From a virus: a stretch of DNA of 20,932 nucleotides. Below, one piece after another: positions 4,581-20,651 of the stretch. The notes below the pieces were generated by a model. The model saw only the letters and a program-made list of their open reading frames with translations, was not told the origin of the DNA and did not search any database. The number at the start of each line of letters is the position of its first letter. Within the stretch, counting starts at the first letter, position 1. The stretch lies in the IMG/VR virus record IMGVR_UViG_3300028388_002940, positions 1 to 20,932 of that record; one strand, written 5' to 3'. Made by a program: the position numbers and the translations under genes.

Positions 4581-4591
4581 AAATTTACTCC

Positions 4592-5062
4592 TTAGATGTT
4601 ACTCTTATTGAACGCATATACGATAATCATTGAGAAAACAAACCCACCGTAAGGATAAATCATTTCATCTACAGTTTCAATAAGGATTGGCAAAACGTAG
4701 TCGCATAATTTACCCAATGTTTCATCTTTGATCATAGCAAGAAAAATATCACGTTGCAAGCTATTCATTATAGAATCTAAGTTTGGAGTATTTTCATTGG
4801 CTTTTGTAAAGCATACAATTTGTATCTTAATTTTATTTTCAAAATTTCCACCAGGTAATGCTTCAAAGTCCTCGCCTTCATTATTTAATATAATCCAGTT
4901 ATTTGGCTTATGTAAAATATCATCTTCTGTTATATTGATATATTGTCTATCAACATAACCCACATCATTATTAAAGAAATTAATACCATCATATGTATTT
5001 GTGGTTTGAATATTTCTTAATACTTCTTCAACCCGATTCAATATGTTTTCTTTTCTTGACAT
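4592..5062 (-). CDS. Tail terminator / tail completion protein (probable)
   Basis: A 156-residue protein starting MSRKENILNRVEEVLRNIQT. It alternates an N-terminal helix, a strand-rich middle (KIKIQIVCFTKANE) and a helix with an ordered run (NLDSIMNSLQRDIFLAMIKD), then a hydrophobic beta end (GGFVFSMIIVYAF). This layout resembles small tail terminator proteins, which cap the tube at the head-proximal end. The 'KAN...DSIMNSLQRDI' part is typical of that group as found in many siphoviruses. It lies directly upstream of the tube gene with an 11-base gap. A neck protein is the main alternative. Confidence 0.62.
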   Translation of the reverse strand: MSRKENILNRVEEVLRNIQTTNTYDGINFFNNDVGYVDRQYINITEDDILHKPNNWIILNNEGEDFEALPGGNFENKIKIQIVCFTKANENTPNLDSIMNSLQRDIFLAMIKDETLGKLCDYVLPILIETVDEMIYPYGGFVFSMIIVYAFNKSNI

Positions 5063-5078
5063 AGTTTTATTCCCACAC

Positions 5079-5705
5079 TTATTTCAAATTTAAGAACTTT
5101 TCTTGTATCCGTTCAAACCAAAAACTAACTTCTTTTTCAATGTGTTCTGAAGACTTATAGCCACCAAATGGCGGGATTGTTAATTTCCCTTTAATGCCCC
5201 AGTTCCATTTTACTCTTCCATATTTACCAGTCCATACTAGTAACTTTTTTGATTTCTTCTTATCGCCCGGAATTTGATACTCTTTGCGACCATGTTCAAA
5301 GATATTAAACATTGCTTTTGATGTAAACTTCCAAACACGTCTACTAGCAGAACCTTTATTCAGTGACTTCATTCTTATTACATGTTTACCAAATTTGCCA
5401 TCTGTAAATTTATTAAATAATCTGTAAACATGTTCAGTTGATGTGTTTGTAGTTCTTCTAACAGAATAAGCAGACATCATGTACTTATTCATTGGTTTAG
5501 ATTTATCTATTTCATATGGATGTGTGCTATTATCCATGATTTTACGCATTGTAGATTTTAATTTTCTATTAATATTCGTTGAATTGACACCACGAAGTAT
5601 ATTTATTGCTTTTTTCTGAAATTGCTTTGAATAACTTAATAGATAGTCAAACACACCGTTTAACCCATCTACAGACATGTTAATGAAATCAAATTTCTTA
5701 GCCAA
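5079..5705 (-). CDS. Neck / HK97 gp10-like tail-completion protein (probable)
   Basis: The frame begins with TTG at 5705 (MAKKFDFINMSVDGLNGVFD), which has AAGGTG 7 bases upstream at 5713-5718; the next Met is codon 10, so TTG is preferred. The start overlaps the end of the connector gene by 8 bases. The 208-residue product is strongly basic and aromatic (LLVWTGKYGRVKWNWGIKGK, with HGRKEYQIPG before it) and ends in an amphipathic helix. Basic proteins of this size with a 'F..HG....' segment between connector and tail terminator are often HK97 gp10-like or minor tail Z-like proteins that join head and tail. That is inference from position and general character. Confidence 0.5.
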   Translation of the reverse strand: MAKKFDFINMSVDGLNGVFDYLLSYSKQFQKKAINILRGVNSTNINRKLKSTMRKIMDNSTHPYEIDKSKPMNKYMMSAYSVRRTTNTSTEHVYRLFNKFTDGKFGKHVIRMKSLNKGSASRRVWKFTSKAMFNIFEHGRKEYQIPGDKKKSKKLLVWTGKYGRVKWNWGIKGKLTIPPFGGYKSSEHIEKEVSFWFERIQEKFLNLK

Positions 5706-6372
5706 GTTTATTCACCTTCTTTTTAATATCTCGACAAATTGCATCAAGTTCATCTTTGCGTAAGCTATATGCATCTTGTGGGGTGAATGATGACTCAGTG
5801 GTATTACCACGTCTATCGAAATTAAACACATTGCCATTATTTGCAGCGCGATTTGATTGATAGCTTGGGTCGTTCTTATAATAGATTACAAGTGATATAA
5901 ACTCATCTTCAAATATGCGTGGTATTTCATCTATAGTTCTATATCTTGCATATTCGTAGTAAATTGTTTCAGATGTTGTAGGCGTTGGAATTAAATCAAA
6001 TGTATCATTACTAACAATTCTAGCATCAACTGGCTTAATTCGTCGCTGTGTTTCATGTTCGTATATATCAGTAATTTGTTGTGATAAGCTGAATCCACCC
6101 CGCCTAGCAACGTCTGGGATATCAGCATCCCCAAAAGGATTTACATTACTTGGCGAATTGTAATATACGTTCTCTATTTTGATTAAGTCGGCATGGGATA
6201 CACTGTATCTAGTCTGGTTGATAACAGTTGTAATAGAAGATGTTTCTAAATATGGATAGAATTCAGATATTTTTCGTGTAGAACGAGAGATGATAGCATC
6301 AAGTTGTGGTGTGTTGATACTATCCATATTGTAAAGATCAGATAATAGTTGTTTGAATTCTTCCAGTGTCAT
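5698..6372 (-). CDS. Head-tail connector (adaptor) protein (probable)
   Basis: I take ATG 6372 (MTLEEFKQLLSDLYNMD) as start because AGGGG lies 8 bases upstream; a GTG three codons earlier overlaps that ribosome binding site and is less likely. The 224-residue protein has an N-terminal helical bundle, a middle with repeated Asp/Tyr turns (TFDLIPTPTTSETIYYEYAR) and a C-terminal helix (DELDAICRDIKKKVNK). The pattern 'F.L.P.P......I...Y.' followed by a helical region resembles gp6-type connectors that dock under the portal. Its start overlaps the preceding methyltransferase gene by 35 bases and its end overlaps the next gene, indicating translational coupling. Confidence 0.55.
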   Translation of the reverse strand: MTLEEFKQLLSDLYNMDSINTPQLDAIISRSTRKISEFYPYLETSSITTVINQTRYSVSHADLIKIENVYYNSPSNVNPFGDADIPDVARRGGFSLSQQITDIYEHETQRRIKPVDARIVSNDTFDLIPTPTTSETIYYEYARYRTIDEIPRIFEDEFISLVIYYKNDPSYQSNRAANNGNVFNFDRRGNTTESSFTPQDAYSLRKDELDAICRDIKKKVNKLG

Positions 6373-7231
6373 AAAAACCACCCCTATTTGTTTTTAAGGG
6401 CTGGTAGCCCCAGTGCTTCAATTGTTCGGAATAATCAGCCACCTTTAAACCAGCATCAGCAGCAGCTTTAATAACTGTTTCATTACTGTGTTTAAAATAC
6501 GCCATATCTGCGTTGGCAGAATCATCACCAGCGTTAAAGATCACTAACACTTTGCCACCATCTTTTAACACCCGTTTAAATTCTACAAAGGCTGGTTTAA
6601 GCAGCTCTGGTGATAAATGATTTAACACATATGAACCATGAACAAAGTCAATAGTTTTATTGTCAACTGATTTCATATTGTGTGCTGATTCATTGATAAA
6701 TCTTACACCTCTGAATGTTTTACCAGACAAGCATTTGGCAACGTCTACAGCAACAGCCATAACACCATTCATTTTAAACCCAAATGCAATAGCACCATAT
6801 GCTGCACCTACATCTAAGAGCGTCTTATTTCTCAAGCCAAATGTTCTTGTAAACATAGAAGCATATGCCTGTTGCCACTTACCATATGCCTGATAATCAC
6901 AGCCTTTTTCTTTTAAGCTATTAAAGTAATCTTCATTGAAGTGCTTTTGATACATTTCAAACAATGATTCATCTATGGCTGGCTTATCTTCATCAATTGC
7001 AATAGATTCAACCTCAACAGCACTCTCTTGTGTATTAACAGGTTCTTCTTCTTTAATTTCTTCCGTCTGTTCTTCTTCTGGAACAATTGCTTCTTCTACA
7101 ACACAATCTTCCATATCCAACTCAATATCATTGAGTTCGGTGCCTGCTTCTAAATCACCAATATCTGTTAAATTTTCTTTGGTTTCTATTGGTTCTTCCA
7201 ATAATTGTTTCTTTTTACGACCTCTAGGCAT
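6338..7231 (-). CDS. Class I SAM-dependent methyltransferase with acidic N-terminal tail
   Basis: The 297-residue protein starts MPRGRKKKQL at ATG 7231 behind AGGAGT. Residues about 12-85 are a low-complexity acidic stretch (many Glu and Asp), probably disordered. Residues about 86-297 hold a Rossmann-fold methyltransferase: motif I LLDVGAAYG at 138-146, an acidic post-I residue in VAVDVAKC (Asp163), and the typical late segment VLKDGGKVLVIFNAG (221-235). It resembles UbiE/type 11 small-molecule or protein methyltransferases, not DNA methyltransferases, because no NPPY-like motif is present. It sits directly after two glycosyltransferase genes and before a connector gene, so a substrate on a virion glycan or virion protein is plausible. 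The substrate cannot be told from sequence. Confidence 0.78.
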   Translation of the reverse strand: MPRGRKKKQLLEEPIETKENLTDIGDLEAGTELNDIELDMEDCVVEEAIVPEEEQTEEIKEEEPVNTQESAVEVESIAIDEDKPAIDESLFEMYQKHFNEDYFNSLKEKGCDYQAYGKWQQAYASMFTRTFGLRNKTLLDVGAAYGAIAFGFKMNGVMAVAVDVAKCLSGKTFRGVRFINESAHNMKSVDNKTIDFVHGSYVLNHLSPELLKPAFVEFKRVLKDGGKVLVIFNAGDDSANADMAYFKHSNETVIKAAADAGLKVADYSEQLKHWGYQPLKTNRGGFYDTGRIQTTII

Positions 7232-7233
7232 AA

Positions 7234-8280
7234 TTAAACTCCTAATATAGATTTTACTTTTTCAAATAATTCATTTCTTATCATATCATAATTCACTTCT
7301 GTCATGCAACGAATCTTACCGCCACATCTTACTCTGGTTTCAAAGCAAGGTTCACATCCTATATATTTTGTCAAGTCAATTGCTTTTGCTTTTTTAGGGT
7401 ATTGTGGATGTAGGGTTATGCGCTCTGATTCCCTAGTTGATGCCAAGAACGTTAATGTAGGGCAGTTTGCACTATGGCACATCCAAAGTACACCACTGTC
7501 CATTGTAATACACAAATCAAGTTTTTCTAACAGTGCTATAACTTGTGGACTTTTTAACTTACCACACAAATTTATTATATTTTTGCCTTCAAATCCTTTG
7601 TCCTTGTCTTGATCTATCAGAATGACATAATAATCCTTTGATAATTCTTCGGCGATTTTATGTATCATTTCGATTGGTAGAGTTTTCATGCAACCAGAAC
7701 CACGAATTTGTAGTCCAATTAAAGGTTTGTCTTTCTTAAAATCTGGCACAATAACACCACCCTTCCATACACAAGACCAATCTAATTCGGTTGGTTGTAT
7801 ATTTTTTAAATTGAAAAAATCCAAGTAGATAAAAACACGATGTTGTGCGTTTTCTTTATTTTCAATCGAGTGATCTCTCTCAAGGATACCATTTGTTGAT
7901 AATATAAATCCAAAATTAAGTTGAGAAATATCACCATTTAGCCATTCTTTTGTAAAAAAACGAATGTCGTTGTAAATATAGGATAATTCTTTTGCAAATC
8001 TATCACTTGTGATAACTTTGACATTTTTTATTCCTAGTTTTTTCTTTAACATTCTACACACAGGAACTATTTGTATTAAATCTCCAAGTGCGTAATCTCT
8101 ATGTATTGTTAAATTATCTGCCCCAACAATACAATTCATGTTAAATTCTGCGAATGAACTATGATCTATGTCTTTGTATGCAGACAAATCAACTATCATA
8201 TTGGGATGAATGGCTATTGGATATGCATCCTTATTGGAATAAATTAATTGAGTTATTTTACTTTTGTTGTAAGATAGCAT
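7234..8280 (-). CDS. Glycosyltransferase family 9 (heptosyltransferase-like)
   Basis: The 348-residue protein has both lobes of a GT-B enzyme. The N-lobe carries RDYALGDLIQIVPV (61-74), the usual family 9 entry motif. The C-lobe carries IGLQIRGSGCMKTLP (188-202), a family-typical MDSG (260-263) with the following helix, and HP at 291-292. A Cys cluster (C309, C312, C319, C325) near the end matches the 'C.PCF......C....CM' tail common in family 9. Known members move heptose or related sugars to lipopolysaccharide cores. The gene starts at ATG 8280 after AGAGG, overlapping its upstream paralogue by 23 bases. Inside a virion operon it more likely glycosylates a phage product or alters a surface glycan; this is inference. 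Confidence 0.85.
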   Translation of the reverse strand: MLSYNKSKITQLIYSNKDAYPIAIHPNMIVDLSAYKDIDHSSFAEFNMNCIVGADNLTIHRDYALGDLIQIVPVCRMLKKKLGIKNVKVITSDRFAKELSYIYNDIRFFTKEWLNGDISQLNFGFILSTNGILERDHSIENKENAQHRVFIYLDFFNLKNIQPTELDWSCVWKGGVIVPDFKKDKPLIGLQIRGSGCMKTLPIEMIHKIAEELSKDYYVILIDQDKDKGFEGKNIINLCGKLKSPQVIALLEKLDLCITMDSGVLWMCHSANCPTLTFLASTRESERITLHPQYPKKAKAIDLTKYIGCEPCFETRVRCGGKIRCMTEVNYDMIRNELFEKVKSILGV

Positions 8281-8854
8281 TAGTTAATACCTCTTTTGTA
8301 TAATTTCTATCAACAGAACTAATACTGACAGAAAAATCATAGTAATCCACATTTATCTGTAAAAATTCCTCAAGAATATGAATTCTATGCAAAAATCTTT
8401 CGTGATTGCTAATGCTATGATCTTTTTCTAACACACCATCCAGATAAATAATCTTATCAAATTTTCCTCTAGGTGTATTAGATTTTAACACATCTACAAA
8501 AACATTAAACGATTTAAAATCATGAACGTAGCAATTATTTGTCAACAAATAATATTTGTTGTTAGTTGTCCTCTTTAAATAGTTGACAACTGGAATCAAT
8601 TGCAATAAATCACCATATGCGCCAAATCTTTTTAGCCCTATTTTTAAATTAGATTGTTTAAATATATCTGGCTTAAAAAGAATATCTTGTTCTGTTATGA
8701 AGTAATTGTTTTTAAGTAATTTAACTGCTACTCGCTTCGGCACCCAAGCCCATTCATTTCTAATAAACTCTTTCGTAAAATTAAATCTATCAATTACAAT
8801 TAACATTTTTTCATAACAATCTGTGTATTTTATTTTTACATATTCTTCTGACAT
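8258..8854 (-). CDS. Truncated family 9 glycosyltransferase paralogue (N-lobe only)
   Basis: The 198-residue product matches only the first lobe of its downstream neighbour. KRFGAYGDLLQLIPVV (75-90) corresponds to the neighbour's RDYALGDLIQIVPV, and DGVLEKDHSISNHERFLHRI (139-158) corresponds to its NGILERDHSIENKE. The sugar-nucleotide C-lobe with the DSG motif is absent. The neighbour has its own complete N-lobe, so this is not one gene broken by a frameshift but a tandem copy that lost or never had its C-lobe. No clear Shine-Dalgarno precedes ATG 8854, which lies just after a terminator hairpin. It could be a non-catalytic partner, an acceptor-binding module or a decaying gene. Confidence 0.75.
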   Translation of the reverse strand: MSEEYVKIKYTDCYEKMLIVIDRFNFTKEFIRNEWAWVPKRVAVKLLKNNYFITEQDILFKPDIFKQSNLKIGLKRFGAYGDLLQLIPVVNYLKRTTNNKYYLLTNNCYVHDFKSFNVFVDVLKSNTPRGKFDKIIYLDGVLEKDHSISNHERFLHRIHILEEFLQINVDYYDFSVSISSVDRNYTKEVLTNAILQQK

Positions 8855-8862
8855 TTGTTACA

Positions 8863-8900
8863 ATAAAATAGAGGGCAAGAATACCCACCCTCTATTTTAT
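8863..8900 (-). terminator. Rho-independent terminator after major capsid gene
   Basis: A perfect 13-base-pair stem (8863-8875 with 8888-8900; GAGGG core against CCCTC) closes a 12-base loop. Because the outer stem is A/T, the minus-strand transcript ends in CCCTCTATTTTATTG, giving a T-rich run. It separates the capsid gene from the glycosyltransferase cassette, so the cassette is probably expressed by read-through at a lower level. Confidence 0.8.
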
Positions 8901-8907
8901 CCTACGA

Positions 8908-10068
8908 TTAAGAAGAACTTACTGTAACAACACCAAGTAAGTCACCAACGACTACTTTCATACCAGCTCTTGAAAGAATGGCACGAGTCTGTCTAAGGGT
9001 ATCCGGGTTAACGAACCACGGAGAAAGATATGCCAGAATGTAAGGTGCAAATACAAAACTGGTTTCTTCCCATCTTGAAGGATTGTTGTAACCCATCAGA
9101 ATTTTACCAGCAGATTCCAGCGGATCAACGAAAACACGCCAGCGGTTTTTCAGAGTACCCATGAAATAACGACCACCAGTTGCAATCATCTGAATGCTGG
9201 TATCACCATCAACAGCTTTAAACCCTTGCATTTTTTCAATGAAAGCAGCTTCATCGGCCCCACAAATGATGAAATTGGTTCTGCGGAATCTTTTCTTAAA
9301 GATTGCATTATCAACATCAATCATTTTTTCGTACAGAGTTTCCATCCAGTATTTTCTATCTTCATATCCAAGACCAGAAGGTTCAACTTTGCTGAATGTA
9401 GCAGCGCCACCAGTAGCGCCATCATACATTGCCTGAATGCCCATTCTATCCCACTCACGAACGGTTTCAGAAGCAAGGTTTGCTGTCATGATAGATTCTG
9501 CATTTTTGCCATGTCGTCTGAGTAAATCCTGCTGTACTTCAATAGTAATTGACGCCTTCAGTTTTTTCTCAGTGGTTGTGATAGTATCAGACGTGATAAC
9601 GAAATTCAATTCTTTAATAGCTTGTGGGCTAGAAGGATTGTATTCTACGTTATCGGCGTAATCACGATTCGCGTGAATGGCGGAAGACACAGAAGTACCA
9701 TCATCCCGCTGTACGTCTGTGTAAAATATGTTACCAACGGGCTCATCAAGAGGCTGGATTGAAGCGATTTCATTCATCAGAAGATTTGGGAAAATCTTAT
9801 CAATCATAGCCAGTTCTGTTTTAACAACGTATGCGATTCCACTATTTGCAGTCTGTTCATGCAGTTCTGCAATGTTAATGGTTTCAACATCAACACCATG
9901 CTCAAGACAGCGCATTTCCATAAGGTTCTGCATCAAGAGTTCCAGTTTGTTCTGGTTAACTTGATCTAATCCCTTACCAGTTAATTGCGATTTAACACCT
10001 TCGGTCAGATGCCCAAACCGCTTGTGGTAAGCTTCATTTCTTTCGAGAAAAGATAATTTTTGTTGCAT
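8908..10068 (-). CDS. Major capsid protein, T4 gp23-type HK97 fold
   Basis: The 386-residue protein starts MQQKLSFLERNEAYHKRFGH behind AGGAG. It resembles T4 gp23-family capsid proteins: KKLKASITIEVQQDLLRRHG followed by KNAESIMTANLASETVREWD matches their conserved E-loop/spine-helix region, and FIICGADEAAFIEKMQGFK with a later KILMGYNNPSRWEETSFVFA and YILAYLSPWF match the A-domain and C-terminal parts. It is shorter than T4 gp23 (about 520 residues), so it probably lacks large insertions. It would form the icosahedral shell and is preceded by its protease and scaffold. A terminator follows, consistent with very high expression. N-terminal cleavage by the protease is expected but the site was not identified. 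Confidence 0.9.
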   Translation of the reverse strand: MQQKLSFLERNEAYHKRFGHLTEGVKSQLTGKGLDQVNQNKLELLMQNLMEMRCLEHGVDVETINIAELHEQTANSGIAYVVKTELAMIDKIFPNLLMNEIASIQPLDEPVGNIFYTDVQRDDGTSVSSAIHANRDYADNVEYNPSSPQAIKELNFVITSDTITTTEKKLKASITIEVQQDLLRRHGKNAESIMTANLASETVREWDRMGIQAMYDGATGGAATFSKVEPSGLGYEDRKYWMETLYEKMIDVDNAIFKKRFRRTNFIICGADEAAFIEKMQGFKAVDGDTSIQMIATGGRYFMGTLKNRWRVFVDPLESAGKILMGYNNPSRWEETSFVFAPYILAYLSPWFVNPDTLRQTRAILSRAGMKVVVGDLLGVVTVSSS

Positions 10069-10094
10069 ACCAATACTCTCCTATTAAAATTTGA

Positions 10095-10766
10095 TTATAT
10101 CCCGTTGATGCTTTTATAGCTATCAATGGTAAGCGGCTCAAGGCCATTAGACGTGCGTTGTTTGTTTTTGCGCTCAAAATCTGAATTTTGTGCTTCGGTT
10201 AAACCGTTTTCAAGAACTGCAACTGCTTCTGTCTGAGCATCAGGAAGTTGGCTTTTAGGTTCTTTAACACTATTCATAGATTCTTTAAGGGCACTGTAAA
10301 CTTCAAACTGCTTGTTGAATACAGATTCAACATCTTCTTTGGTTTCACAATGTTCAAAGATATTTGCAAATACTTCAAGCTTGAAGAATTCTTCGTGTTT
10401 TGCTTTAAGTGATTCAATTGCTGCATCTTTGGCTTCTGAAATAACTTGCTTTTCAGATTCTTTGATAGCAAGATTTGATTCTTCCAATGCTTTTTTAGTA
10501 TCTTCGAGTTCTTTTTTAACAGATTGCAATTCTTTTTCTTTTTCTTCCTGAATTTTAACTTCTGGAATTACAGTGAAAAGATCAGGACATACTGTTTTAA
10601 GAGATTCTGCAAGATTCTTAATAACGGGCCCCAGTTCTGACTTAACAGATGCTTTTGCTTCCTCTACTTTAGTTTCAGTTTCAGACTTTAATTCTGCAAC
10701 TACGCTCTGCTTAAACTGTTCCATAAGTTCAGGAAAAGCCGCTTTCAGTTCTTCAACTGTTTTCAT
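10095..10766 (-). CDS. Nested in-frame scaffold protein (internal start)
   Basis: Inside the protease-scaffold gene, codon 186 is ATG (10766) preceded by AAGGAG with a 7-base spacer, a nearly ideal ribosome binding site. Translation from here would give a 223-residue protein starting MKTVEELKAAFPELMEQFKQ and consisting only of the coiled-coil scaffold. The internal start falls exactly at the boundary between protease and coiled coil. This is the arrangement of lambda C/Nu3, where the free scaffold is made in excess over the protease form. Use of the site is inferred. Confidence 0.75.
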   Translation of the reverse strand: MKTVEELKAAFPELMEQFKQSVVAELKSETETKVEEAKASVKSELGPVIKNLAESLKTVCPDLFTVIPEVKIQEEKEKELQSVKKELEDTKKALEESNLAIKESEKQVISEAKDAAIESLKAKHEEFFKLEVFANIFEHCETKEDVESVFNKQFEVYSALKESMNSVKEPKSQLPDAQTEAVAVLENGLTEAQNSDFERKNKQRTSNGLEPLTIDSYKSINGI

Positions 10767-11321
10767 GCTTTTACTCCTTGATTTAGATTCGTATTGAACA
10801 TAAGTTTTTGTGTCTTTCACAGACGGGTCATCCACAAAATCAATCGTTTCCAGTTCAAACCCATCCTGAATTACATCAAATTTTCCCGGGAACCCAGGTA
10901 ATTCTTGGTCATATGCACATGCACCATAACCACGAGTAGAAACACCAAGTTTTGCACCCAAGTCAACTAATGCCTTTAGGTCTTTACCTGCGGCTGTATC
11001 AGCGATTTGTGCAGTATACCAAGCAAGCCCATTTTCATCAACATCTGATATATCTACAAGCAATGCGCCTGTATTTCTAAGAGATGATTGCCAATCTGGA
11101 TGATCGACCATCATTGTTATTTCCTTATTAATAACACGAGGCCTAAGCTTGTTAATTGCATCCTGCATAGTTTTACGCGGGTAAACACGGTTATTTCCAT
11201 TCGGATAGTCAACTCTTGTGAATGGCGCACTTACTAAATACTTTTTTACACCGTTTTCTTCAACGATGTTATATTTAGATTCTGTAAACCATTGCACTTC
11301 TAAAATTTCATTTTTTCTCAT
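10095..11321 (-). CDS. Prohead protease (T4 gp21-type) fused to scaffold
   Basis: The 408-residue protein starts MRKNEILEVQWFTESKYNIV at ATG 11321 with GAGG upstream. Residues about 28-170 are a herpesvirus-assemblin-like serine protease of the T4 gp21 group: MMVDHPDW gives the catalytic His (H74), and GVSTRGYG gives the nucleophile Ser (S128), with a downstream VDDPS segment. Residues about 186-370 are a charged Glu/Lys-rich coiled coil, typical of a capsid scaffold. The fusion resembles lambda C/Nu3, in which one gene encodes protease plus scaffold. In assembly the scaffold directs shell formation, then the protease degrades it and trims head proteins. It lies 26 bases upstream of the capsid gene. 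Confidence 0.88.
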   Translation of the reverse strand: MRKNEILEVQWFTESKYNIVEENGVKKYLVSAPFTRVDYPNGNNRVYPRKTMQDAINKLRPRVINKEITMMVDHPDWQSSLRNTGALLVDISDVDENGLAWYTAQIADTAAGKDLKALVDLGAKLGVSTRGYGACAYDQELPGFPGKFDVIQDGFELETIDFVDDPSVKDTKTYVQYESKSRSKSMKTVEELKAAFPELMEQFKQSVVAELKSETETKVEEAKASVKSELGPVIKNLAESLKTVCPDLFTVIPEVKIQEEKEKELQSVKKELEDTKKALEESNLAIKESEKQVISEAKDAAIESLKAKHEEFFKLEVFANIFEHCETKEDVESVFNKQFEVYSALKESMNSVKEPKSQLPDAQTEAVAVLENGLTEAQNSDFERKNKQRTSNGLEPLTIDSYKSINGI

Positions 11322-11349
11322 AGAAATACCTCATTTGCGTTCACCTATT

Positions 11350-11379
11350 ATTCTAAACATACAGTAATGGGATTGTCAA
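11350..11379 (-). promoter_or_regulatory. Sigma70-like promoter for protease-scaffold-capsid genes
   Basis: Minus strand: -35 TTGACA (11379-11374), 18-base spacer, -10 TAGAAT (11355-11350). The expected transcript start is about 11343, some 20 bases before the protease ATG at 11321. The -35 box overlaps the stop of the 47-residue ORF. An extra promoter here would raise scaffold and capsid supply above portal and terminase. Sequence match only. Confidence 0.55.
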
Positions 11380-11519
11380 ATAAATAATTTGGTCATTGTG
11401 TAATAGTGTGGGTATGGTATATTTTTTTTAATAGCATTATTGTAAATAACAATATACTTTGAAATTTGATCTTTTGTTAATCCGTATGCTTTTAACGTAT
11501 CTTCTAAATTTAACATCAT
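11376..11519 (-). CDS. Small 47-residue protein, translationally coupled
   Basis: ATG 11519 overlaps the TGA of the preceding gene as ATGA; a second ATG follows directly. The product begins MMLNLEDTLKAYGLTKDQIS and continues through a helical, Lys/Tyr-rich segment to a TGA at 11378-11376. ATGA overlaps link the portal, head and basic-protein genes just upstream in the same way, which supports real translation. No family was recognised. A small head-assembly factor would fit the place, but nothing in the sequence shows function. Confidence 0.55.
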   Translation of the reverse strand: MMLNLEDTLKAYGLTKDQISKYIVIYNNAIKKNIPYPHYYTMTKLFI

Positions 11520-11926
11520 CTATACCTCAACACACCAGCTCTTTTACTCTTTGCAAGTTGAGAAGAAACACCACCAGAACCCATGTTAACAGAACGATAA
11601 GATTTAATCCTGTGTTTACTAAGGTCTAATCGCAGTTGCAATGTTCCACCATTTCTTGTGTTCATTTTAACCATAGATGTATACCAGTTTCTAGGTTTAA
11701 TATTCATGCTACTTGCTTCATATCTAGTAGAAATCTTTTTTAAAAACCTTCTATGCTTTTTAATAAACCTAGTATATGTCTGTCTATATCTACGGCCAAT
11801 CTTCTGAGTTTTCTTTGATGGATAGATGTATATGTAGTTTCCGGGTGTTCCAAGTCTCTGCAAATAGCTAGAGCCTAATATCTTTTGGCCTTTTGTATAC
11901 TCCAATAGTTGTTGTTTTGTTATCAT
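11516..11926 (-). CDS. Basic protein of the head module, unknown function
   Basis: A 136-residue protein starting MITKQQLLEYTKGQKILGSS. It is strongly basic, with clusters such as KKTQKIGRRYRQTYTRFIKK followed by HRRFLKK, and ends in KSKRAGVLRYR. Its start overlaps the end of the MuF-like gene (ATGA at 11926-11923) and its stop overlaps the next small ORF. The charge suggests contact with DNA or with acidic scaffold inside the capsid, but I recognise no family. It is co-translated with head morphogenesis genes, so a structural or assembly role is likely. Confidence 0.7.
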   Translation of the reverse strand: MITKQQLLEYTKGQKILGSSYLQRLGTPGNYIYIYPSKKTQKIGRRYRQTYTRFIKKHRRFLKKISTRYEASSMNIKPRNWYTSMVKMNTRNGGTLQLRLDLSKHRIKSYRSVNMGSGGVSSQLAKSKRAGVLRYR

Positions 11927-13029
11927 TTTGATTCTTTAAAAACAACATGGATAGAAACATCTACCTGCATCGCACTATCAAATAGTGTTTCAACAGATAA
12001 CAAATTTCCATCTATTGCTTTCACCTTTCCATAAACTTGTTTTCCACCAACAAACACACTAACAATATCATTAGGCGTAATGTTGGTTGTATTTTCTATG
12101 TAATCAAATTCATCTGATTTTTTAAACTTTTTAACTTCACCAATCTGAGTAGCATTATACATTATAACAGATACAGCTAAATTTCTTCCATTGATATAGT
12201 TGCTTACATTCTTTTTATTTTCTTTTGCTATATCAAAGTATTTATCAAGTTTCGTCATTTCGTATTTTAAACGATTGTTATAATAGCTATCTACTTGATT
12301 TTTAATATAATTATAATCATTTTCAGATGGTATTATTTCTCTAGCTGATGTGTAATTATCAATTATAAAGTTTGTATATGCTGTATTTACATAAGATGTA
12401 TAATACTGAAGTTTGCACTTACAGTTGTTAAGACATCTGCTATTACAACTTCTAGGTATACCAGGTAGTGTTTTCTTTGTATATGGACTATTTTTTGCAA
12501 ACATCAAACAATCAATACAGTGTTTGTCTGTTATTCCTAATATCCATTCTATCTGCATATCTTCTGGTAAATATGCAATATCTCCCAACTTAAATAATGG
12601 GTCTAAGCCACCAGCATACATGTTCATTCTTCGTTTATATGGCATTTTGCCCGACATATTAATCATATCATCGGCAAATTTACTCATATATTTCATTTCT
12701 TCTGTAGTCTGGTAGACAATAAACCTGCGCTCAGAATCACTTAATGTTGTTTCTGTTCTCTGATTAAATTTTTTACCAAGCAAGTAACTATTAGTAAAAT
12801 GTTTAGATATGGTCGTTTTTTGTAAAACTTCATACTGTTCTTTGGTTAACTTTCCGCCTAACAATAATTCCATATGTTTAAACAGTTCTTGTTTGTATTT
12901 AGCTTTTGTAATCATGAAGTGCTTAACTGCATCTTTACGATCAGACTGCGATACGCCGTGAGTTATCCCCACGGCGTTATTGCGCTTTAATAACGACTTA
13001 GAAAACTTTGCTTCGATATTTAATTTCAT
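11923..13029 (-). CDS. MuF-like minor head protein
   Basis: The 368-residue protein starts MKLNIEAKFSKSLLKRNNAV at ATG 13029, overlapping the portal stop by four bases. The central region has a helical part followed by a cysteine-containing segment: ITDKHCIDCLMFAKNSPYTK, then C195, C199, C203 and C205, ending CKCKLQYY. The 'W....D..C..C..........LP.......C...C.C.L' spacing is the mark of phage Mu F-like head morphogenesis proteins, and the gene sits directly after the portal as usual. The C-terminal third (about 290-368) looks like a small beta domain (NDIVSVFVGGKQVYGKVKAI). MuF proteins are minor head proteins, sometimes ejected with DNA; no toxin domain is evident here. Confidence 0.75.
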   Translation of the reverse strand: MKLNIEAKFSKSLLKRNNAVGITHGVSQSDRKDAVKHFMITKAKYKQELFKHMELLLGGKLTKEQYEVLQKTTISKHFTNSYLLGKKFNQRTETTLSDSERRFIVYQTTEEMKYMSKFADDMINMSGKMPYKRRMNMYAGGLDPLFKLGDIAYLPEDMQIEWILGITDKHCIDCLMFAKNSPYTKKTLPGIPRSCNSRCLNNCKCKLQYYTSYVNTAYTNFIIDNYTSAREIIPSENDYNYIKNQVDSYYNNRLKYEMTKLDKYFDIAKENKKNVSNYINGRNLAVSVIMYNATQIGEVKKFKKSDEFDYIENTTNITPNDIVSVFVGGKQVYGKVKAIDGNLLSVETLFDSAMQVDVSIHVVFKESK

Positions 13030-14714
13030 TGAAACAATTTGGCCTGTGTCAGTATTATTAACTCACGAACCGTCTGTTTTACTTCTGGATGCTTGTCAAG
13101 AATTCTTTGGATTTTTTGCCATTCTTTAAACTTCTTTTCACCAAGCTTAGTCTGTAACGCTGATATGACATCTTCTTTTGTTGGTTCATCGTTTTCATCT
13201 TCTTCTTCTTTATCATCGCCATCCAATGGCTGATCTTCAAACTCGCTGGCACTCATATCGCTTTGATCTTCAGCATCACCTAACATAGCGTCTAGTTCAT
13301 CTTTATAGTTTTCTTCTTCTGCGTCTAACCTATCCATCAGTTCTTTTGCTTCATTGTCTGTCATTCCCATAATCTTGGTGTAGATATACAGGTCATCAAC
13401 CAGCGCCATTTCTGCCAGAATTGATGCTACATCAAGTTTAAGTTTTTCAATTTTCCATCTGCGTTCTTCATCAATAAAGTTACTTATAGGCCATTCTATT
13501 GTAAACTCATCGCTGTTTGTTATAGTGTTTTCAATCGCCAGGCAATCAACAATAAACTGTTTAATTTGTGGTTCAAATAACATCTGGAATCTTCTTATTT
13601 TGCGCAAAAATGTAGTCATTTGAACATCTGATGTAGATTTTGAATTGACATCGGTTTCTTTACCAATAAGAATCTTTGGTGTGTGTGTAGAATAAATCAT
13701 CTTATTCTGGTGGTATTCAATATCTTCTATATTTTTACCAGTGTTGTTTGAATTATTCAACGCGACTACATTGGCACCAGAACCTTGTCTAGTTGGTATA
13801 ACAATATCCTCTATTACTGATAATGGATTGTATTCCCATGACCATTTACCAGACTTAGGGTCGATATACTTTCTTCGTAATAGTTGCTGTTTATACTTCT
13901 TGATAAAGTTAAGAGCATCATCGCCTTCTAAATTACCAACATCTATCATCATAGCATAGTTCTGATTGGCTCTGGAAAGTCTGGATATCATTAATCCTTC
14001 TTCCATCAATCTTAATTGTCTGTATGATAATCTAGAATAATGTAAAATAGACAATCCTTTTCTATACTTAGTCCATCTTTCACGATCTATACAAAGTGAA
14101 AGATGAAAAACTTCTCCGCGTTTAAATGTTGCTAGTTTTTCGCCGGTTTCTGATACTTGCAGATATGCTGAGTTGTCTTTAACAATGCCGTTTTTAACAT
14201 TAGGAACGACACTCTCAATAGGAATGTTTCTTAATCCCATTACCTTTGTTTGTTCTGGGTTTGTTAAAATTTCTTCAAAGTTATCGCCGTATTTTATAGC
14301 ATTTCTAGTGATTGGAAACAGGACTTGTTTAAAGTCTATTCGCTTTAACAATGAATCTATTTGCTTTTGAACTCTGGTTGATTTATGTTTAACTGTGAAA
14401 ATTTCTGTTTTGTCTGTTTCGGCTGGGTATGTAATAAATTCGGAATTAACATCAAGTGACTGTGATAGCTCTGGAACTTCTACGTCCATATTATCATAAT
14501 CAAGATAACAGATTTTATCACTGGCGTTTAATTCCATATTTTTATCAATAAATGAACGCCATGATCTATATGTATTTGAGTTGTCTAAATCATCATCTAA
14601 TAATGATTTAGGTGGTGCCATATTACCAACAGCTTCTAATACAGAAGTTTTTGTTTCGTTTACTATTCTTGTTACTTCGTCACCAAGAAACCATCTTTTC
14701 AATCGACTAAACAT
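13026..14714 (-). CDS. Portal protein, T4 gp20-type
   Basis: The 562-residue protein starts MFSRLKRWFLGDEVTRIVNE; GAGGGA lies before ATG 14714 and only three bases separate it from the terminase stop. The core resembles gp20: RWTKYRKGLSILHYSRLSYR with RQLRLMEEGLMISRLSRANQ, then YIDPKSGKWSW, EDIVIPTRQGSGANVVALNN and GKNIEDIEYHQNKMIYSTHT. These correspond to the wing/stem segments conserved in T4-type portals. Residues about 465-520 are highly acidic (EFEDQPLDGDDKEEEDENDE), followed by a helical end. The portal forms the dodecameric vertex through which DNA enters and leaves and which docks terminase and connector. Confidence 0.88.
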   Translation of the reverse strand: MFSRLKRWFLGDEVTRIVNETKTSVLEAVGNMAPPKSLLDDDLDNSNTYRSWRSFIDKNMELNASDKICYLDYDNMDVEVPELSQSLDVNSEFITYPAETDKTEIFTVKHKSTRVQKQIDSLLKRIDFKQVLFPITRNAIKYGDNFEEILTNPEQTKVMGLRNIPIESVVPNVKNGIVKDNSAYLQVSETGEKLATFKRGEVFHLSLCIDRERWTKYRKGLSILHYSRLSYRQLRLMEEGLMISRLSRANQNYAMMIDVGNLEGDDALNFIKKYKQQLLRRKYIDPKSGKWSWEYNPLSVIEDIVIPTRQGSGANVVALNNSNNTGKNIEDIEYHQNKMIYSTHTPKILIGKETDVNSKSTSDVQMTTFLRKIRRFQMLFEPQIKQFIVDCLAIENTITNSDEFTIEWPISNFIDEERRWKIEKLKLDVASILAEMALVDDLYIYTKIMGMTDNEAKELMDRLDAEEENYKDELDAMLGDAEDQSDMSASEFEDQPLDGDDKEEEDENDEPTKEDVISALQTKLGEKKFKEWQKIQRILDKHPEVKQTVRELIILTQAKLFQ

Positions 14715-14717
14715 AAC

Positions 14718-17096
14718 TTAATCCCTCGCCCATTTTTCAAAATTTTCTATAATTTCCTGATATGTTTGTAAATTACTGGTATCTGTTCCAACAGACACAG
14801 GAAGTAATGGCATATCATTGTATATTGGATTTATGTGCATATTATAAACAATTTGGCCAGCTGCGTCTGATAAATCTTTTGAATTATGTACAAAAATGCC
14901 AGCAGATAGCGCAAAATTACTAGTAAGAGGCACTTCTATATCATATACTGGAACTTCTTCAGAAAGCAATATTTTTTTAATAGAAACTATTTTACAACAA
15001 CAATCCAACGACATAAGAGAATCACGAGTTAATAAATCTTTTGCTTCTTTGTAACTACCATCTCTCATCATAAACCGATGGTCGTCGGTGCATTTAATTA
15101 TCTCACCATTATCTATCTGTATTTCCAAATATTGTTTTATTTTTTTAGTTTCAAATATTCGTTTTGCTTTTGTAGGAACAATAAGTCCATTTTCAAAACA
15201 GCCATATAGTTCTACATTTTCCAAACCTACCAACTCTGAAATTGGTACATTTGTACCATTCAATAGCTTAATCTTTGTATCTCCTAAAAAACAACCCCGT
15301 GGATTATGATCAATTTTATTTCTGATGTAATCCCGTTCTAACTCATTTAGCTCCAATTCAAGCAATTGATTGTAAATTGAGCAGATTCTTTCTTCATATA
15401 ACGCAGAACGATATGTTTCATATGGCTCAGTTGTTTTATCCATTGATATGTATGTGCCTTCTATGCCATATCGTTTCAATATCTGAAACATATCTGTAGA
15501 CTGATATCCATCCATTGATACCTGTCTTATTTTATACCCAAATTTTATTAATTGCAATATCAAATTACGAACTCTTGCTAATTCTACTTCGCCAAATTCT
15601 TCTTCTTTCTTTATCGTCAGTAACATTTCTATTACAATTTTTGGCATTTTTTCTTCGTATACATCAAATGTTTGTTTTTCTGCATTAAAGAATTCTTTCT
15701 TTGCCCGAGCATGTCCATCTATGTAACCAAGCGCAAAGCCGAACTTATCCTTCTTGACACCAATATCTATACCAACATATCTAACTGCGTCTGGCTTTCT
15801 TATCTTATGTGGTAAAATATATTCTTGTTGTAAGAATTGTGGCTTTGGGGATAATGTTGCCTCATCTACAGAAAATATTCTGGTTAATCCGATTTGTTCT
15901 CCATGTAAAAAGGCATTTCCAATGTACTCTTTATTACCAATAAAGGGCTGCACTGTGTAAATAGCCACGCCAGCAATATCACGGATTGCGTTATCAAGGT
16001 CTTTACGAAATTTATCATAAAAATCCATAGGGACGTGAATAACTTCACCAACAATAGGCTGATTGTCAAATTCATCTATAATTCTACTCCTACTATTAAT
16101 ACTCCCAATCATTACCTTAAATTCTTCGGTGGAATATCTTTCTCTATTTACAGTCCATAAATTGTAATCCATTACATGAACTGTTTGTATTCCTGTTTCT
16201 CTTTCTAATTCTTTTGATTTTTCTATCTGATTTGCAGTAAAATCATTTGGATATACCTTAGACGAACCTATATAAAAGATTCCGGGTTTATGTCCGTTCT
16301 GCAAGAAACGTGCGTCTAGCCTACGTCGAACTGATTGATAAAGAACTAATGCCTCGTCGTATATTTCACCAGCCTCTTGTGCCCTTTTAGAATTGGCTAC
16401 CTTTTTAAAGAAGTTAGCTTCATCGAGACACGCACTATAAATGTTTAAACCAATCGTTGATGAATGTTCTGACGTCGCATTCATAATCTCGATATTATTA
16501 GGGAATATCATAGATTCAGTTGCACGCTTAGGATCAAATTGGAAGTTTTCTATGAAATATGGTATCTTTTTTAATGCTTCTTTAATACCAGAAAAGATAT
16601 TCTTTTTACTTTGCTTTTCAGTTATAGATATAATCATCAGTGCTATTTTTGTATTAGCACCCAGTCCAAAGAATCGCTGTGGGTACTTAAGGCAAGACAA
16701 TAGATATAACTGCCATATCATTGATATTTCCATGAAAAAAGATTTTCCCCAACCAATACCACCAGTTAAAATAACTTCAGAATAAGGCGAATCCTTTCTA
16801 TGTATTTCGCAGAATTCTTTTTTCAATTGCTCATGCAAAGTAGCAGCAACACCTTCTCCTGTTACTGGATCTGGGCCTAGAAAATACGGGTCTGATAAAA
16901 ATTGTTCTGGTGTTACTGGTTCCCATCTGAAAGGACTAGAATCTTTTACTATTTCTTCAAATGTATCTTGAATGATGTTTAAAACAACTTCTTCATTTCC
17001 CTGATGTTCTTTGATTAAATTTTCAATAAAATCACTCTTTTTAATTGATTTAAGCATCAATTGTTTAATTTTCTCAGGATTATAATTTCCAATCAT
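14718..17096 (-). CDS. Terminase large subunit interrupted by a mini-intein
   Basis: The 792-residue precursor starts MIGNYNPEKIKQLMLKSIKK. The ATPase half has Walker A GGIGWGKS (112-119) and Walker B ACLDEANF (222-229). The nuclease half has VGIDIGVKKDKFG with Asp444, VSMDGYQS with Asp529, and a last acidic motif SKDLSDA (739-745). A 137-residue intein occupies residues 602-738, between HNPRG and SKDLSD. Removal would restore HNPRGSKDLSDA and a mature length of 655 residues. The enzyme packages DNA into proheads through the portal and cuts concatemers. No small terminase gene lies upstream; the upstream gene is on the other strand. The ribosome binding site (AGAAAG) is weak. Confidence 0.93.
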   Translation of the reverse strand: MIGNYNPEKIKQLMLKSIKKSDFIENLIKEHQGNEEVVLNIIQDTFEEIVKDSSPFRWEPVTPEQFLSDPYFLGPDPVTGEGVAATLHEQLKKEFCEIHRKDSPYSEVILTGGIGWGKSFFMEISMIWQLYLLSCLKYPQRFFGLGANTKIALMIISITEKQSKKNIFSGIKEALKKIPYFIENFQFDPKRATESMIFPNNIEIMNATSEHSSTIGLNIYSACLDEANFFKKVANSKRAQEAGEIYDEALVLYQSVRRRLDARFLQNGHKPGIFYIGSSKVYPNDFTANQIEKSKELERETGIQTVHVMDYNLWTVNRERYSTEEFKVMIGSINSRSRIIDEFDNQPIVGEVIHVPMDFYDKFRKDLDNAIRDIAGVAIYTVQPFIGNKEYIGNAFLHGEQIGLTRIFSVDEATLSPKPQFLQQEYILPHKIRKPDAVRYVGIDIGVKKDKFGFALGYIDGHARAKKEFFNAEKQTFDVYEEKMPKIVIEMLLTIKKEEEFGEVELARVRNLILQLIKFGYKIRQVSMDGYQSTDMFQILKRYGIEGTYISMDKTTEPYETYRSALYEERICSIYNQLLELELNELERDYIRNKIDHNPRGCFLGDTKIKLLNGTNVPISELVGLENVELYGCFENGLIVPTKAKRIFETKKIKQYLEIQIDNGEIIKCTDDHRFMMRDGSYKEAKDLLTRDSLMSLDCCCKIVSIKKILLSEEVPVYDIEVPLTSNFALSAGIFVHNSKDLSDAAGQIVYNMHINPIYNDMPLLPVSVGTDTSNLQTYQEIIENFEKWARD
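14883..15293 (-). mobile_element. Mini-intein (no homing endonuclease) in terminase
   Basis: In-frame 137-residue insertion. The first residue is Cys with a block A match (CFLGDTKIKLLNG). Block B is GEIIKCTDDHRFMMRDG with the TxxH motif. Blocks F and G are VPVYDIEVPLTSNFALSAG and IFVHN, with penultimate His, terminal Asn and a +1 Ser. All residues expected for class 1 protein splicing are present. At this length there is no room for a LAGLIDADG or HNH homing endonuclease, so mobility has been lost or must be supplied in trans. Confidence 0.93.
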
Positions 17097-17168: not shown

Positions 17169-17192
17169 AAACGAAAGGTTAATATATGTCAA
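17164..17192 (-). promoter_or_regulatory. Leftward sigma70-like promoter for virion operon
   Basis: Minus strand: -35 TTGACA (17192-17187), 17-base spacer, -10 TATCAT (17169-17164). The predicted start near 17157 leaves a leader of about 60 bases before the terminase ATG at 17096. It faces the rightward promoter, so the two transcripts overlap by roughly ten bases and each polymerase crosses the other promoter. Confidence 0.65.
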
Positions 17193-17260
17193 TATATAAA
17201 CAAATATTAGATTCTGGCGAACTTAGAGGGTTAGTACAGGTAGTCAGAGGTGAAAAGTGA
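17186..17260 (+). CDS. 24-residue leader-like ORF before methyltransferase
   Basis: ATG 17186, with GAAAGG about 6 bases upstream, opens a 24-codon ORF encoding MSIYKQILDSGELRGLVQVV followed by RGEK. Its TGA (17258-17260) overlaps the GTG start at 17257, giving a GTGA coupling. It could be a leader peptide that couples translation, or a very small protein. No family was recognised. Confidence 0.45.
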   Translation: MSIYKQILDSGELRGLVQVVRGEK

Positions 17261-20139
17261 AAAGCGAAACAAAACAGACATTATTTGCGTTACAAGAAGC
17301 CGACCAAGACCTTGAATGGTTCCCGACAACCCCTGAAATTTTACAAGCAGTTAATCGTGACTTGCTTGAAATAAGCTGTGAACAATATAGACATAGCGGC
17401 TACCATAGAAGCAGTCAAAACATGCATCGATGCTATGGCAGCCGAGAAGACTTTACAGGTGAAGAATTTTTTATTGATTCTTTCCTTGATATTGGATGTG
17501 GCGATGGCAGAGTGTTTAACTTTATCAAGGGTAATTCTAAAATCAGAACGATCATAAAAAATAGGCTTGGCATTGAAAAAGCTGACGTACAGGCCGACAA
17601 CCTTGTTAGAAATGGCGTGGGTCTAATTGGTAGAGATTTATTTGAAACGGTTTTGCTTGGTAAGTTTTTCAACGTTGTATTCTGCAACCCGCCATACTCT
17701 CAGTTTAAATTGTGGATTGAGAAAATACTCAAAGAAGCCCGCGCAGAAGTTTTTTACTTTGTGATTCCTGAAAGATGGCAAAATGACATCAACGTAAAAT
17801 ACATGATGGAAGAAAAGGGAGAGCTTGAAAATCTTGGCAGCTTTGATTTTCTTGGTGCAGACAGAGCAGCAAGGGCAAAAGTTGATTTAATCAAAGTTTC
17901 GCCCTACAAGCACAAAGACAAAGGAAAAGACCCGTTTGACGCTTGGATTGAGGAAAATATCGGCAATTTTGAGGTATCCGAGGAGCAGATAAAAGAAGCT
18001 GAACAAAAAGAAGCCGATAGAATGGCGATGCAGCAAAATAGAGCAGATAAGGCCGCTTTATTGTGCGAAAACTACCGAGAAGACCTTAATCAGCTTATGC
18101 AGCTTTTTAAATCACTGGCAAATGTTAATTTTCGGCTTTTAAAGCAACTTGGACTTGATAAAGAAAGAATTTTGCAAATTGTAAAAGACGATATTCAAGC
18201 TCTGAAAAAGCGATACTGGCACCAAGCTTTTGACGCGTTGCAGCCCATTAGCAGCAGACTTACTAATAAAACAAAGGAAAAGCTGTTGGACTCAATAAAG
18301 TGGTTTGCTGATCTTGATTTTAACGAGGGGAATATAAAAACGATTATTGTTTGGGTCATTGAAAATTACAACAAATATGTTAAAGAGCAGGTTCTACAGG
18401 CTTTTGAAGACTTTACAGGATTTGATTGCGTTCGTGCTTATAAAAGCAATGACAAGTGGTTTAAAAGTGGCTGGCGTTACAACAACAAAGACATGCCGGA
18501 AAAATACGCTCTTGATTATAGAGTCGTGTGTCGTTGTCTGCTTTCAAGCTATCAATATGACCTGCATAAAAACAAAATTTCTGACTTGGCTGTAATTGCA
18601 GAAAATCTTGGCTTTAAAAATCTTGGAGTCACTGAGTTCGTGCAAGATGGCAAGAAAAAATATTGCAAAAACGATGAACATCAAGAAAATTTTTCAGGTT
18701 TTTTAAATAGTATTTGTATTTTCGGTGGAGGTAGTGCAGGATGGATCACTGCCCTTGCATTAAGGACTGCACTACCTGACATTCCTATTGCTATTGTTAT
18801 ACCAAAAGAATATTCAAATATAGGAGTAGGAGAAAGCACCCAGCCTGACTTATTGTCTTTGTTGTCTGATGGCGGAATAGACATAGATGATTTTGCGCAA
18901 CAAGTAGATAGTGGTATTAAACACGGTATTTACTATAGAGATTGGAATCAAGTAGGCACCGATTATTGGCATCCTTTTACAGATTTATCTGGAGAAGAAA
19001 TGTATACTAGAGCACACCACTATCACAAGATGAATAAGGTAGATCCTCACAACTATCCATTACAGGATTATTATAAAACAGTTCATCCTTCGTACCACCT
19101 TATTGTAGAAAATAACTGCTCGTCAACATCTATACCATATGCATTGCATATTGATTCTGATAAAATGGCAAAGTATTTAAGAAATTTTTTAAAAGATTCA
19201 ATCTTTATTGTCGACTGCGATGTTTATCAGGTGATCACAGATGGTAAAAAAATAAAAAGTATTCATGCCGATAATAACCCTATCGATGCAGATTTGTATA
19301 TCGATTGTACAGGTTTTAGTAGGATTTTGTCTAATGCTATTAACAACACAGAAACAGACAACTATGAAGGAAACGTAAATGCAGCCATTGTAGGTCGCAT
19401 ACCATATGTAAACGAGGCAACACAATATTTTCCCTACACACAGGCACATGCATGGGAATATGGCTGGATTTGGACTATACCTTTAGAAACACGTATTGGA
19501 TCAGGATGTGTTTATAACGAAAATTTTTGCTCAGAAGAGATTGCGGTTGAGAAGTTTTTAAAATATTGGCATTATGCAGTATCTGAAAAAGACATTAGAA
19601 AAATTAGTTTTGATTCAGAAAGTCTTATTGAGCCCTGGAAATCAAACGTTGTAAACATAGGTTTAAGTGCAGGTTTTATTGAACCATTAGAAGCCACAGG
19701 TATAAGCTGGTTTGTAATGGCAAGTGAGGTTTTGGGAATAATGTTAAAAAATCGCTATTTTGATAAACAACTTGCGCAACGTTACAATACATCAATGAGA
19801 TCTTTTATTGAGGATGTTCAAGATTTCATAGATGTGCATTACATGCTTTCTGAAAGAACTGATTCAAAATTTTGGGAATATCAGACAAACAGGCCTAGAC
19901 ATCCGCGTTTGTTAGCTAGATTAAACATTTACAAAAAATTTATGCCAAACAAAACAAACAGAAGATCGTCAGTTGCTTGGGCTTTCAACGATGTTTCTTG
20001 GATAGATATTCTTACGGGTTATCATTTTAACTTTGATGATATTGATATACCAGATGATTATATTAGACAGAAAGAAAGTCAACTGTTTAAGGATCATAAT
20101 ATTAAAATACAAAGAAATATTGACACAGGCAGCACTTAA
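17257..20139 (+). CDS. In-frame fusion: adenine-type DNA methyltransferase + flavin-dependent halogenase (probable chimera)
   Basis: One uninterrupted 960-codon frame opens at GTG 17257 (AGAGG upstream). Residues 1 to about 200 are an N6-adenine-type methyltransferase: motif I FLDIGCGDGRVF (76-87) and motif IV NPPY (144-147). Residues about 260-480 are a helical region resembling the DUF4942 extension seen on phage and plasmid methyltransferases (WYF-rich, KWFKSGWRYNNKDMPEKYAL). From about residue 484 the sequence is a tryptophan-type halogenase. The two functions have no known link, the methyltransferase extension seems to end abruptly, and the halogenase begins almost at its natural first residue. 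I read this as two genes from different phages joined in frame; whether in nature or in assembly cannot be decided here. Confidence 0.7.
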   Translation: MKSETKQTLFALQEADQDLEWFPTTPEILQAVNRDLLEISCEQYRHSGYHRSSQNMHRCYGSREDFTGEEFFIDSFLDIGCGDGRVFNFIKGNSKIRTIIKNRLGIEKADVQADNLVRNGVGLIGRDLFETVLLGKFFNVVFCNPPYSQFKLWIEKILKEARAEVFYFVIPERWQNDINVKYMMEEKGELENLGSFDFLGADRAARAKVDLIKVSPYKHKDKGKDPFDAWIEENIGNFEVSEEQIKEAEQKEADRMAMQQNRADKAALLCENYREDLNQLMQLFKSLANVNFRLLKQLGLDKERILQIVKDDIQALKKRYWHQAFDALQPISSRLTNKTKEKLLDSIKWFADLDFNEGNIKTIIVWVIENYNKYVKEQVLQAFEDFTGFDCVRAYKSNDKWFKSGWRYNNKDMPEKYALDYRVVCRCLLSSYQYDLHKNKISDLAVIAENLGFKNLGVTEFVQDGKKKYCKNDEHQENFSGFLNSICIFGGGSAGWITALALRTALPDIPIAIVIPKEYSNIGVGESTQPDLLSLLSDGGIDIDDFAQQVDSGIKHGIYYRDWNQVGTDYWHPFTDLSGEEMYTRAHHYHKMNKVDPHNYPLQDYYKTVHPSYHLIVENNCSSTSIPYALHIDSDKMAKYLRNFLKDSIFIVDCDVYQVITDGKKIKSIHADNNPIDADLYIDCTGFSRILSNAINNTETDNYEGNVNAAIVGRIPYVNEATQYFPYTQAHAWEYGWIWTIPLETRIGSGCVYNENFCSEEIAVEKFLKYWHYAVSEKDIRKISFDSESLIEPWKSNVVNIGLSAGFIEPLEATGISWFVMASEVLGIMLKNRYFDKQLAQRYNTSMRSFIEDVQDFIDVHYMLSERTDSKFWEYQTNRPRHPRLLARLNIYKKFMPNKTNRRSSVAWAFNDVSWIDILTGYHFNFDDIDIPDDYIRQKESQLFKDHNIKIQRNIDTGST
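18685..18715 (+). other. Putative chimeric junction
   Basis: Within this AT-rich, T-run-containing stretch the protein changes from methyltransferase extension (KNDEHQENFSG) to halogenase start (NSICIFGGG). Upstream genes use strong ribosome binding sites and form a siphovirus-type module; downstream genes are T4-like with weak ribosome binding sites and more AT-rich coding sequence by eye. The exact breakpoint cannot be set without relatives of each side. Confidence 0.6.
18706..20139 (+). other. Flavin-dependent (tryptophan-type) halogenase module
   Basis: Residues about 484-960 form a near-complete FAD-dependent halogenase of about 477 residues. Visible landmarks: FAD-binding GGGSAGW (490-496); NIGVGESTQPDLLSLL (521-536); Lys555 in SGIKHGIYYRDW, aligned with the catalytic Lys79 of PrnA; the family signature GWIWTIP (736-742); and FIEPLEATGISW with Glu812, aligned with catalytic Glu346 of PrnA. 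Such enzymes halogenate tryptophan or indole-like compounds using FADH2, oxygen and halide, and need a separate flavin reductase, which is not seen here. Halogenase-like genes are known in marine T4-like phages, where the substrate is unknown. The module lacks only its own start codon. Confidence 0.88.
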
Positions 20140-20273: not shown

Positions 20274-20651
20274 ATGAAAATGAAAAAACCAGACAGAGTA
20301 GCAGACAATCCCATGTCATTGCCTTATGCTAGCAATGTCAGCGGACCTGCTATCTCCGTCCCTGATGTAGCTAAGTTTAAAGAACGGGTGCCGCTGGCTA
20401 ATCATCATCTATATCAAAGGCTAGAAGAGATAAAGAAAGAATACGATGAACTTTTAGCACTTGCAAAAGATACTGAACTTTGTTATAATGCACGTTATAA
20501 CTTTATTCCTATAGTAGGAGAAACATATTATCTTTATTGGACAGGAGACGACTATTTGCTTAGTTTAATAGATCCAGATAGATGGGATAGATACGAGTTT
20601 GTAGGTTCATATGTGCATGGCACAAACAACACATGGGAAAGACAAGAATGA
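20274..20651 (+). CDS. DUF2452 protein, T4-like phage type
   Basis: The 125-residue protein starts MKMKKPDRVADNPMSLPYAS. It has the DUF2452 layout: an N-terminal NPMSLPY motif, a helix (LYQRLEEIKKEYDELLALAK), and a C-terminal block NARYNFIPIVGETYYLYWTG followed by LLSLIDPDRW and NTWE. The family is common in T4-like marine phages and in some bacteria, with no established function. It lacks a clear ribosome binding site, unlike genes in the left part. Its stop overlaps the start of the clamp-loader gene as ATGA, so the two are coupled. Confidence 0.82.
   Translation: MKMKKPDRVADNPMSLPYASNVSGPAISVPDVAKFKERVPLANHHLYQRLEEIKKEYDELLALAKDTELCYNARYNFIPIVGETYYLYWTGDDYLLSLIDPDRWDRYEFVGSYVHGTNNTWERQE

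Follow-up and report, generated by a model that had tools for sequence, protein, structure and literature searches.

The window, a stretch of 20,932 nt of viral DNA analysed over its whole length (IMG/VR record IMGVR_UViG_3300028388_002940), consists of three blocks of separate ancestry, which meet at two junctions (Table 1). Its 960-codon open frame, which the list of open reading frames gives with a GTG start at 17257 and its stop at 20139, does not look like an evolved bifunctional enzyme; it looks like the product of a junction. The joins are probably a chimera that arose during assembly or amplification.

In order, the frame contains the motifs DIGCGDGRV and NPPY, followed by GGGSAGW and GWIWTIP, and it also contains Lys555 and Glu812. 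The original prediction of one frame with methyltransferase and halogenase motifs was borne out by the translation and, for Lys555 and Glu812, by alignment with solved halogenases. A lineage junction had been placed near 18,685-18,715; it is supported, and could be narrowed down to a stretch of eight residues. The accompanying view that the contig joins two phages was not upheld, as there are three blocks. Comparison of each half of the frame with its full-length relatives revealed both the truncation of the methyltransferase and a second, unsuspected junction 5' of it.

Table 1 Features of the three blocks and of the two junctions between them, with position in the window, strand and supporting evidence.
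Feature	Position	Strand	Evidence
Left block: virion and packaging module (tail, capsid, portal, terminase)	1..17096	-	Synteny with L006-L010
Remnant of dATP/dGTP-diphosphohydrolase gene, ~22 codons, with 1-nt slip	17186..17250	+	L006 MSINKQVLDSGKRQQFSTGSQR; PF18909
First junction, left block to methyltransferase	17219..17257	.	Homology to L006-L008 stops
Truncated DUF4942-type methyltransferase, residues 1-474	17257..18678	+	49% identity to L022; ~82 C-terminal residues gone
Second junction, eight residues (HQENFSGF)	18679..18702	.	Match members of neither family
Flavin-dependent tryptophan-type halogenase without own start codon	18703..20139	+	PF04820, E 1.9e-85
DUF2452-like protein	20274..20651	+	82% identity to L128, 62% to L126/L127; PF10504 below cut-off
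gp44-type clamp loader, 5' part, stopped by the contig end	20648..20932	+	phrog_168, E 2.1e-28

The left block and the first junction

The five contigs syntenic with the left block (L006-L010) are uncultivated viral contigs, and the closest of them was L006, with 88% identity in the capsid protein. The description of the upstream genes as a siphovirus-type virion module was partly right: it failed for the portal (Portal_T4, E 5e-36) and the capsid (Gp23, E 3e-40), which are T4-type by Pfam. A tail protein at 3600-4580 matched phrog_290 in PHROGs.

The site of the first junction is covered by three of the five relatives (L006, L007 and L008), and these have other genes there. In L006, a dATP/dGTP-diphosphohydrolase gene lies divergent to the terminase, followed by ThyX and HD genes; L007 and L008 carry diphosphohydrolase, ThyX and HD genes at the site in the same kind of order. 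No halogenase was found anywhere in the searched records of these three. The diphosphohydrolase gene is intact in all three, and its 5' end alone is left in the window. Before this remnant, the window has kept the intergenic stretch of the left lineage, including divergent promoter-like sites near 17112-17192. After the remnant, homology is lost and the methyltransferase begins, with a purine-rich stretch, AGAGG, directly 5' of the GTG start.

The remnant reads MSIYKQILDSG, compared with MSINKQVLDSG in L006, and is followed by STGSQR in a frame shifted by one base. Between the window and L006, 37% of conserved codons differed synonymously across the genes for terminase, portal, capsid and tail. 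In the first 11 codons of the remnant, every conserved degenerate codon was identical to that of L006; in STGSQR, all six differed. Judging from these codon counts, which are small, the break may lie near 17219, with the next 30 bases coming from another lineage.

The two parts of the fused frame and the right block

Relatives of the methyltransferase part were obtained by profile searches, as single-sequence searches of viral and genome collections gave no close ones. The best were L210, from a metagenome-assembled bacterial genome (50% identity), L022, and L023/L024 (41%). Relatives at ~30% were found on plasmids, among them those of Campylobacter, Vibrio, Shewanella and Marinobacter, and in a Helicobacter pullorum prophage. 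The start of the window protein was placed where the relatives start. DIGCGDGRV and NPPY aligned with the homologues, with G80, G82 and N144-Y147 invariant, and both the SAM-binding motif and the NPPY catalytic motif of a DUF4942 methyltransferase are present. Pfam detected DUF4942 at residues 314-400 (E 4.7e-7), and PHROGs gave a DNA methyltransferase match at residues 70-171. Matches in PADLOC were all weak, to orphan and type II methyltransferases and one Cas3b. A structure search with L022 linked its catalytic domain to RNA adenine dimethyltransferases (KsgA, Dim1, Erm), at low TM-scores, which do not establish the substrate.

In these motifs, and in its 31-50% identity over residues 1-474, the part resembles the DUF4942 methyltransferases (PF13708) found on plasmids, in prophages and in phages. 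Unlike them, it is missing its C-terminal end. The alignments with L022 and L210 stopped at window residue 474, and 77 of 80 viral homologues run well past this point, by a median of 82 residues. The window protein covers positions 2-82 of the 190 in the Pfam domain, compared with 2-186 in L022, and does not contain a complete DUF4942 domain with its conserved C-terminal end. In an AlphaFold model of L022, the part missing from the window forms three strands and three helices (pLDDT 88-95). In a model of the fusion, the methyltransferase core and most of the halogenase were confident, most of residues 407-480 had a pLDDT of 40-50, and the C-terminal subdomain of the methyltransferase was lost. 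Because the missing end is ordered in the L022 model and the residues just before the join are modelled poorly in the fusion, the methyltransferase is cut inside an ordered subdomain. We also considered a complete methyltransferase merely abutting the halogenase, which was ruled out by the missing end.

Halogenase homology started at residue 483. The Pfam Trp_halogenase profile matched over practically its whole length (residues 486-923, profile positions 2-443 of 458), and phrog_2928 matched residues 485-939 (E 1.8e-97). The GxGxxG and WxWxIP motifs of the predicted halogenase are present as GGGSAG and GWIWTIP, and Lys555 and Glu812 aligned with the conserved catalytic K and E of the solved enzymes. 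The nearest relatives found had 50-54% identity (L117 54%, L002 52%). These free halogenases begin with MKQINNVCIFGGG (L117) or MFQTVKSICIFGAG (L002), and the window has ENFSGFLNSICIFGGG. Since both free relatives carry a start of their own, the window halogenase has lost its start. The originally reported landmark motifs of the halogenase stood, and a start codon of its own is lacking.

In T4-like phages, halogenases of this kind occur as ordinary single genes. Phage flavin-dependent halogenases (phrog_2928, PF04820) have been annotated in Pelagibacter phage HTVC008M and in Synechococcus phages, and a characterised viral one is VirX1 of cyanophage Syn10 (PDB 6qgm; PMC8407142). The window part is like the phage halogenases in having GGGSAGW, GWIWTIP, the catalytic Lys and Glu, a near full length and T4-like neighbours. 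It is unlike them in being read through from a methyltransferase fragment, without a start codon of its own. On an uncultivated phage contig (L117:3002-11061), four halogenase-like genes lie close together, along with at least one gene resembling 2OG-Fe(II)-oxygenases and another of a similar kind, a gene content suggestive of a possible phage-borne tailoring cluster.

The T4-like neighbours expected 3' of the halogenase were recovered, as a DUF2452 match below the Pfam cut-off and then a phage clamp loader. The clamp loader was at most 86% identical to those of the T4-like L126-L129, and 39% identical to the left lineage's own in L007. DUF2452 adjoins the clamp loader in L126-L128 as well, and the flanks examined there contained no halogenase. 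In seven contigs (L136, L137, L139, L140, L145-L147), a more distant halogenase (29%) was located upstream of the clamp loader, and therefore such a neighbour is not out of place. Of the 17 clamp-loader contigs tested for a left-type capsid gene, 15 had none, and the capsids of the other two were only 24-27% identical. That the left and right blocks form one known lineage was ruled out by the clamp loader and by gene content. None of the loci fetched for any one block contained the other blocks.

Origin of the joins

The probabilities that we attach to the four readings below are judgements, not computed posteriors. A chimera being more probable than a real fusion, as originally proposed, is still the leading reading. 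Three ancestries would have been placed end to end, namely the left packaging module, a foreign, cut DUF4942 methyltransferase and a T4-like halogenase-DUF2452-clamp-loader stretch, by joins made during metagenome amplification or assembly. The second join would be in frame by chance, as is expected for ~1 in 3 random joins. If translated, the predicted product would combine the catalytic domain of a methyltransferase with the broken end of DUF4942 and a flavin halogenase that looks intact.

The joins break three genes: the diphosphohydrolase, of which ~22 codons are left, the methyltransferase, which is ~82 residues short, and the halogenase, which has no start. Together with the separation of the blocks in their relatives and the missing second example, this suggests joins that were unshaped by selection. 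We consider an accidental join most likely, because the methyltransferase is cut in its last domain and close relatives of the blocks were never found together. Chimeras made up <5% of contigs ≥10 kb in simulated viromes (PMC5610896), and are therefore a realistic source. The window is like chimeric metagenome contigs in its blocks of separate ancestry, its joins inside genes and the lack of a second copy among the records compared. It is unlike them in its two close joins, the in-frame result and the outer blocks, which are partly alike in composition. Further points count against a chimera. Two joins are needed, 1.4 kb apart, and both are near the 5' end of the next gene. The right block is oriented like the operon it replaces, and the frameshift in the remnant is consistent with a truncated gene decaying in a real genome.

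In codon usage, the methyltransferase was distinct from the left block (p 1.6e-10) and also from the halogenase (p 3.5e-4). Between the halogenase and the left block there was no difference (p 0.25), and of 172 ORFs taken from T4-like and halogenase-carrying contigs, none was as close to the left block as the halogenase. DUF2452 and the clamp loader did differ from the left block (p 2e-4). By dinucleotide profile, the right block lay as close to the left block as segments of the left block itself do, with the methyltransferase outside. At the sequence level, the composition shared by the halogenase and the left block is the main evidence against a simple chimera. A transfer into the left-block phage must postdate the split from L006, unless the lineage of L006 lost the genes. 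We judged such a transfer too recent for codon adaptation, and therefore infer that the match mainly reflects similar habits of the donor.

Because of the paired joins, the shared codon usage, the preserved orientation and the frameshifted remnant, a real illegitimate recombination in a phage is possible, if rather unlikely. A methyltransferase fragment and a T4-like halogenase/clamp-loader segment would have displaced the diphosphohydrolase-ThyX-HD operon. The in-frame join would be incidental, and the halogenase may be produced as the C-terminal part of a chimeric protein, or may not be produced. The left-block-like codon usage and dinucleotide profile of the halogenase argue for such an event, as do the retained orientation and promoter-like sites, the AGAGG before the GTG start and the frameshift, which is expected for a decaying gene. 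However, foreign DNA would have to have been acquired at least twice at a single site after the split from L006, with three genes left broken, and the phage's clamp loader would now be T4-like and different from the one that its own lineage carries. The codon usage of DUF2452 and the clamp loader, unlike that of the left block, also speaks against a real recombination.

A functional bifunctional enzyme, in which the catalytic domain of the methyltransferase would carry the halogenase or guide it, for example to nucleic acid, is very unlikely. All 960 codons are open from a plausible start, the catalytic motifs are intact in both parts, and the methyltransferase core and the halogenase were modelled with confidence. 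If it were true, a viral halogenase would be tied to a methyltransferase, through a striking exchange of modules between distant phages, and would gain a new partner or a new target, for instance nucleic acid. However, that a frame stays open through a junction is weak evidence of bifunctionality; DUF4942 is cut inside an ordered subdomain and the joining stretch is poorly predicted. The truncation opposes the new bifunctional protein of the original prediction whether or not the junction is real. No fusions were present among the retrieved homologues of either half, and none of the other loci and phage records compared held a protein covering both, which had been named as a sign of a real fusion. 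The exact 53-base junction had no match in the viral collection scanned. Near-identical records may be left out of such searches, and the missing second example is therefore weak evidence. A literature search on DUF4942 and on methyltransferase-halogenase fusions gave no lead.

We give the lowest probability to two overlapping genes that seem fused through a miscounted T run at 18699-18704. With one extra T, the methyltransferase would stop at once and the halogenase would start in the other frame, at an ATG at 18674; the methyltransferase would be truncated even so. The alternative frame is indeed open upstream, with this ATG, and the first junction likewise has a 1-nt slip. However, the similarity of the alternative N-terminus to the relatives was not significant (~0.06-0.31 of random stretches scored as well), in the 17-kb left block the annotated genes have open frames, as in the list, and a miscount leaves the missing methyltransferase end unexplained. 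The components are members of known families, and, with the chimera as the preferred reading, the fusion is best treated as not a real feature.

Other features of the left-block lineage

The T4-type portal and Gp23 capsid (8908-14714), together with the phrog_290 tail protein (3600-4580), represent a little-known phage lineage. Its 120-kb member L007 has a tape-measure-sized gene of 2,493 residues without a PHROGs match.

The gene for the terminase large subunit (14718-17096) contains a mini-intein-like insert at 14883-15293, on the minus strand (Pfam Intein_splicing, E 3.6e-14). The insert is found at the same place in L007 and is absent from L006, which is 84% identical. A head-region protein of L007 (L007:5735-8119, corresponding to 11923-13029 in the window) has an apparent long intein-like insert with an endonuclease-like part, recognised by eye only; the copies in the window and in L006 are uninterrupted. 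Within the virion operon, at 6338-8854 on the minus strand, lie genes for a methyltransferase and a glycosyltransferase family 9 protein and a related shorter gene, a set kept in the same order in L006-L010.
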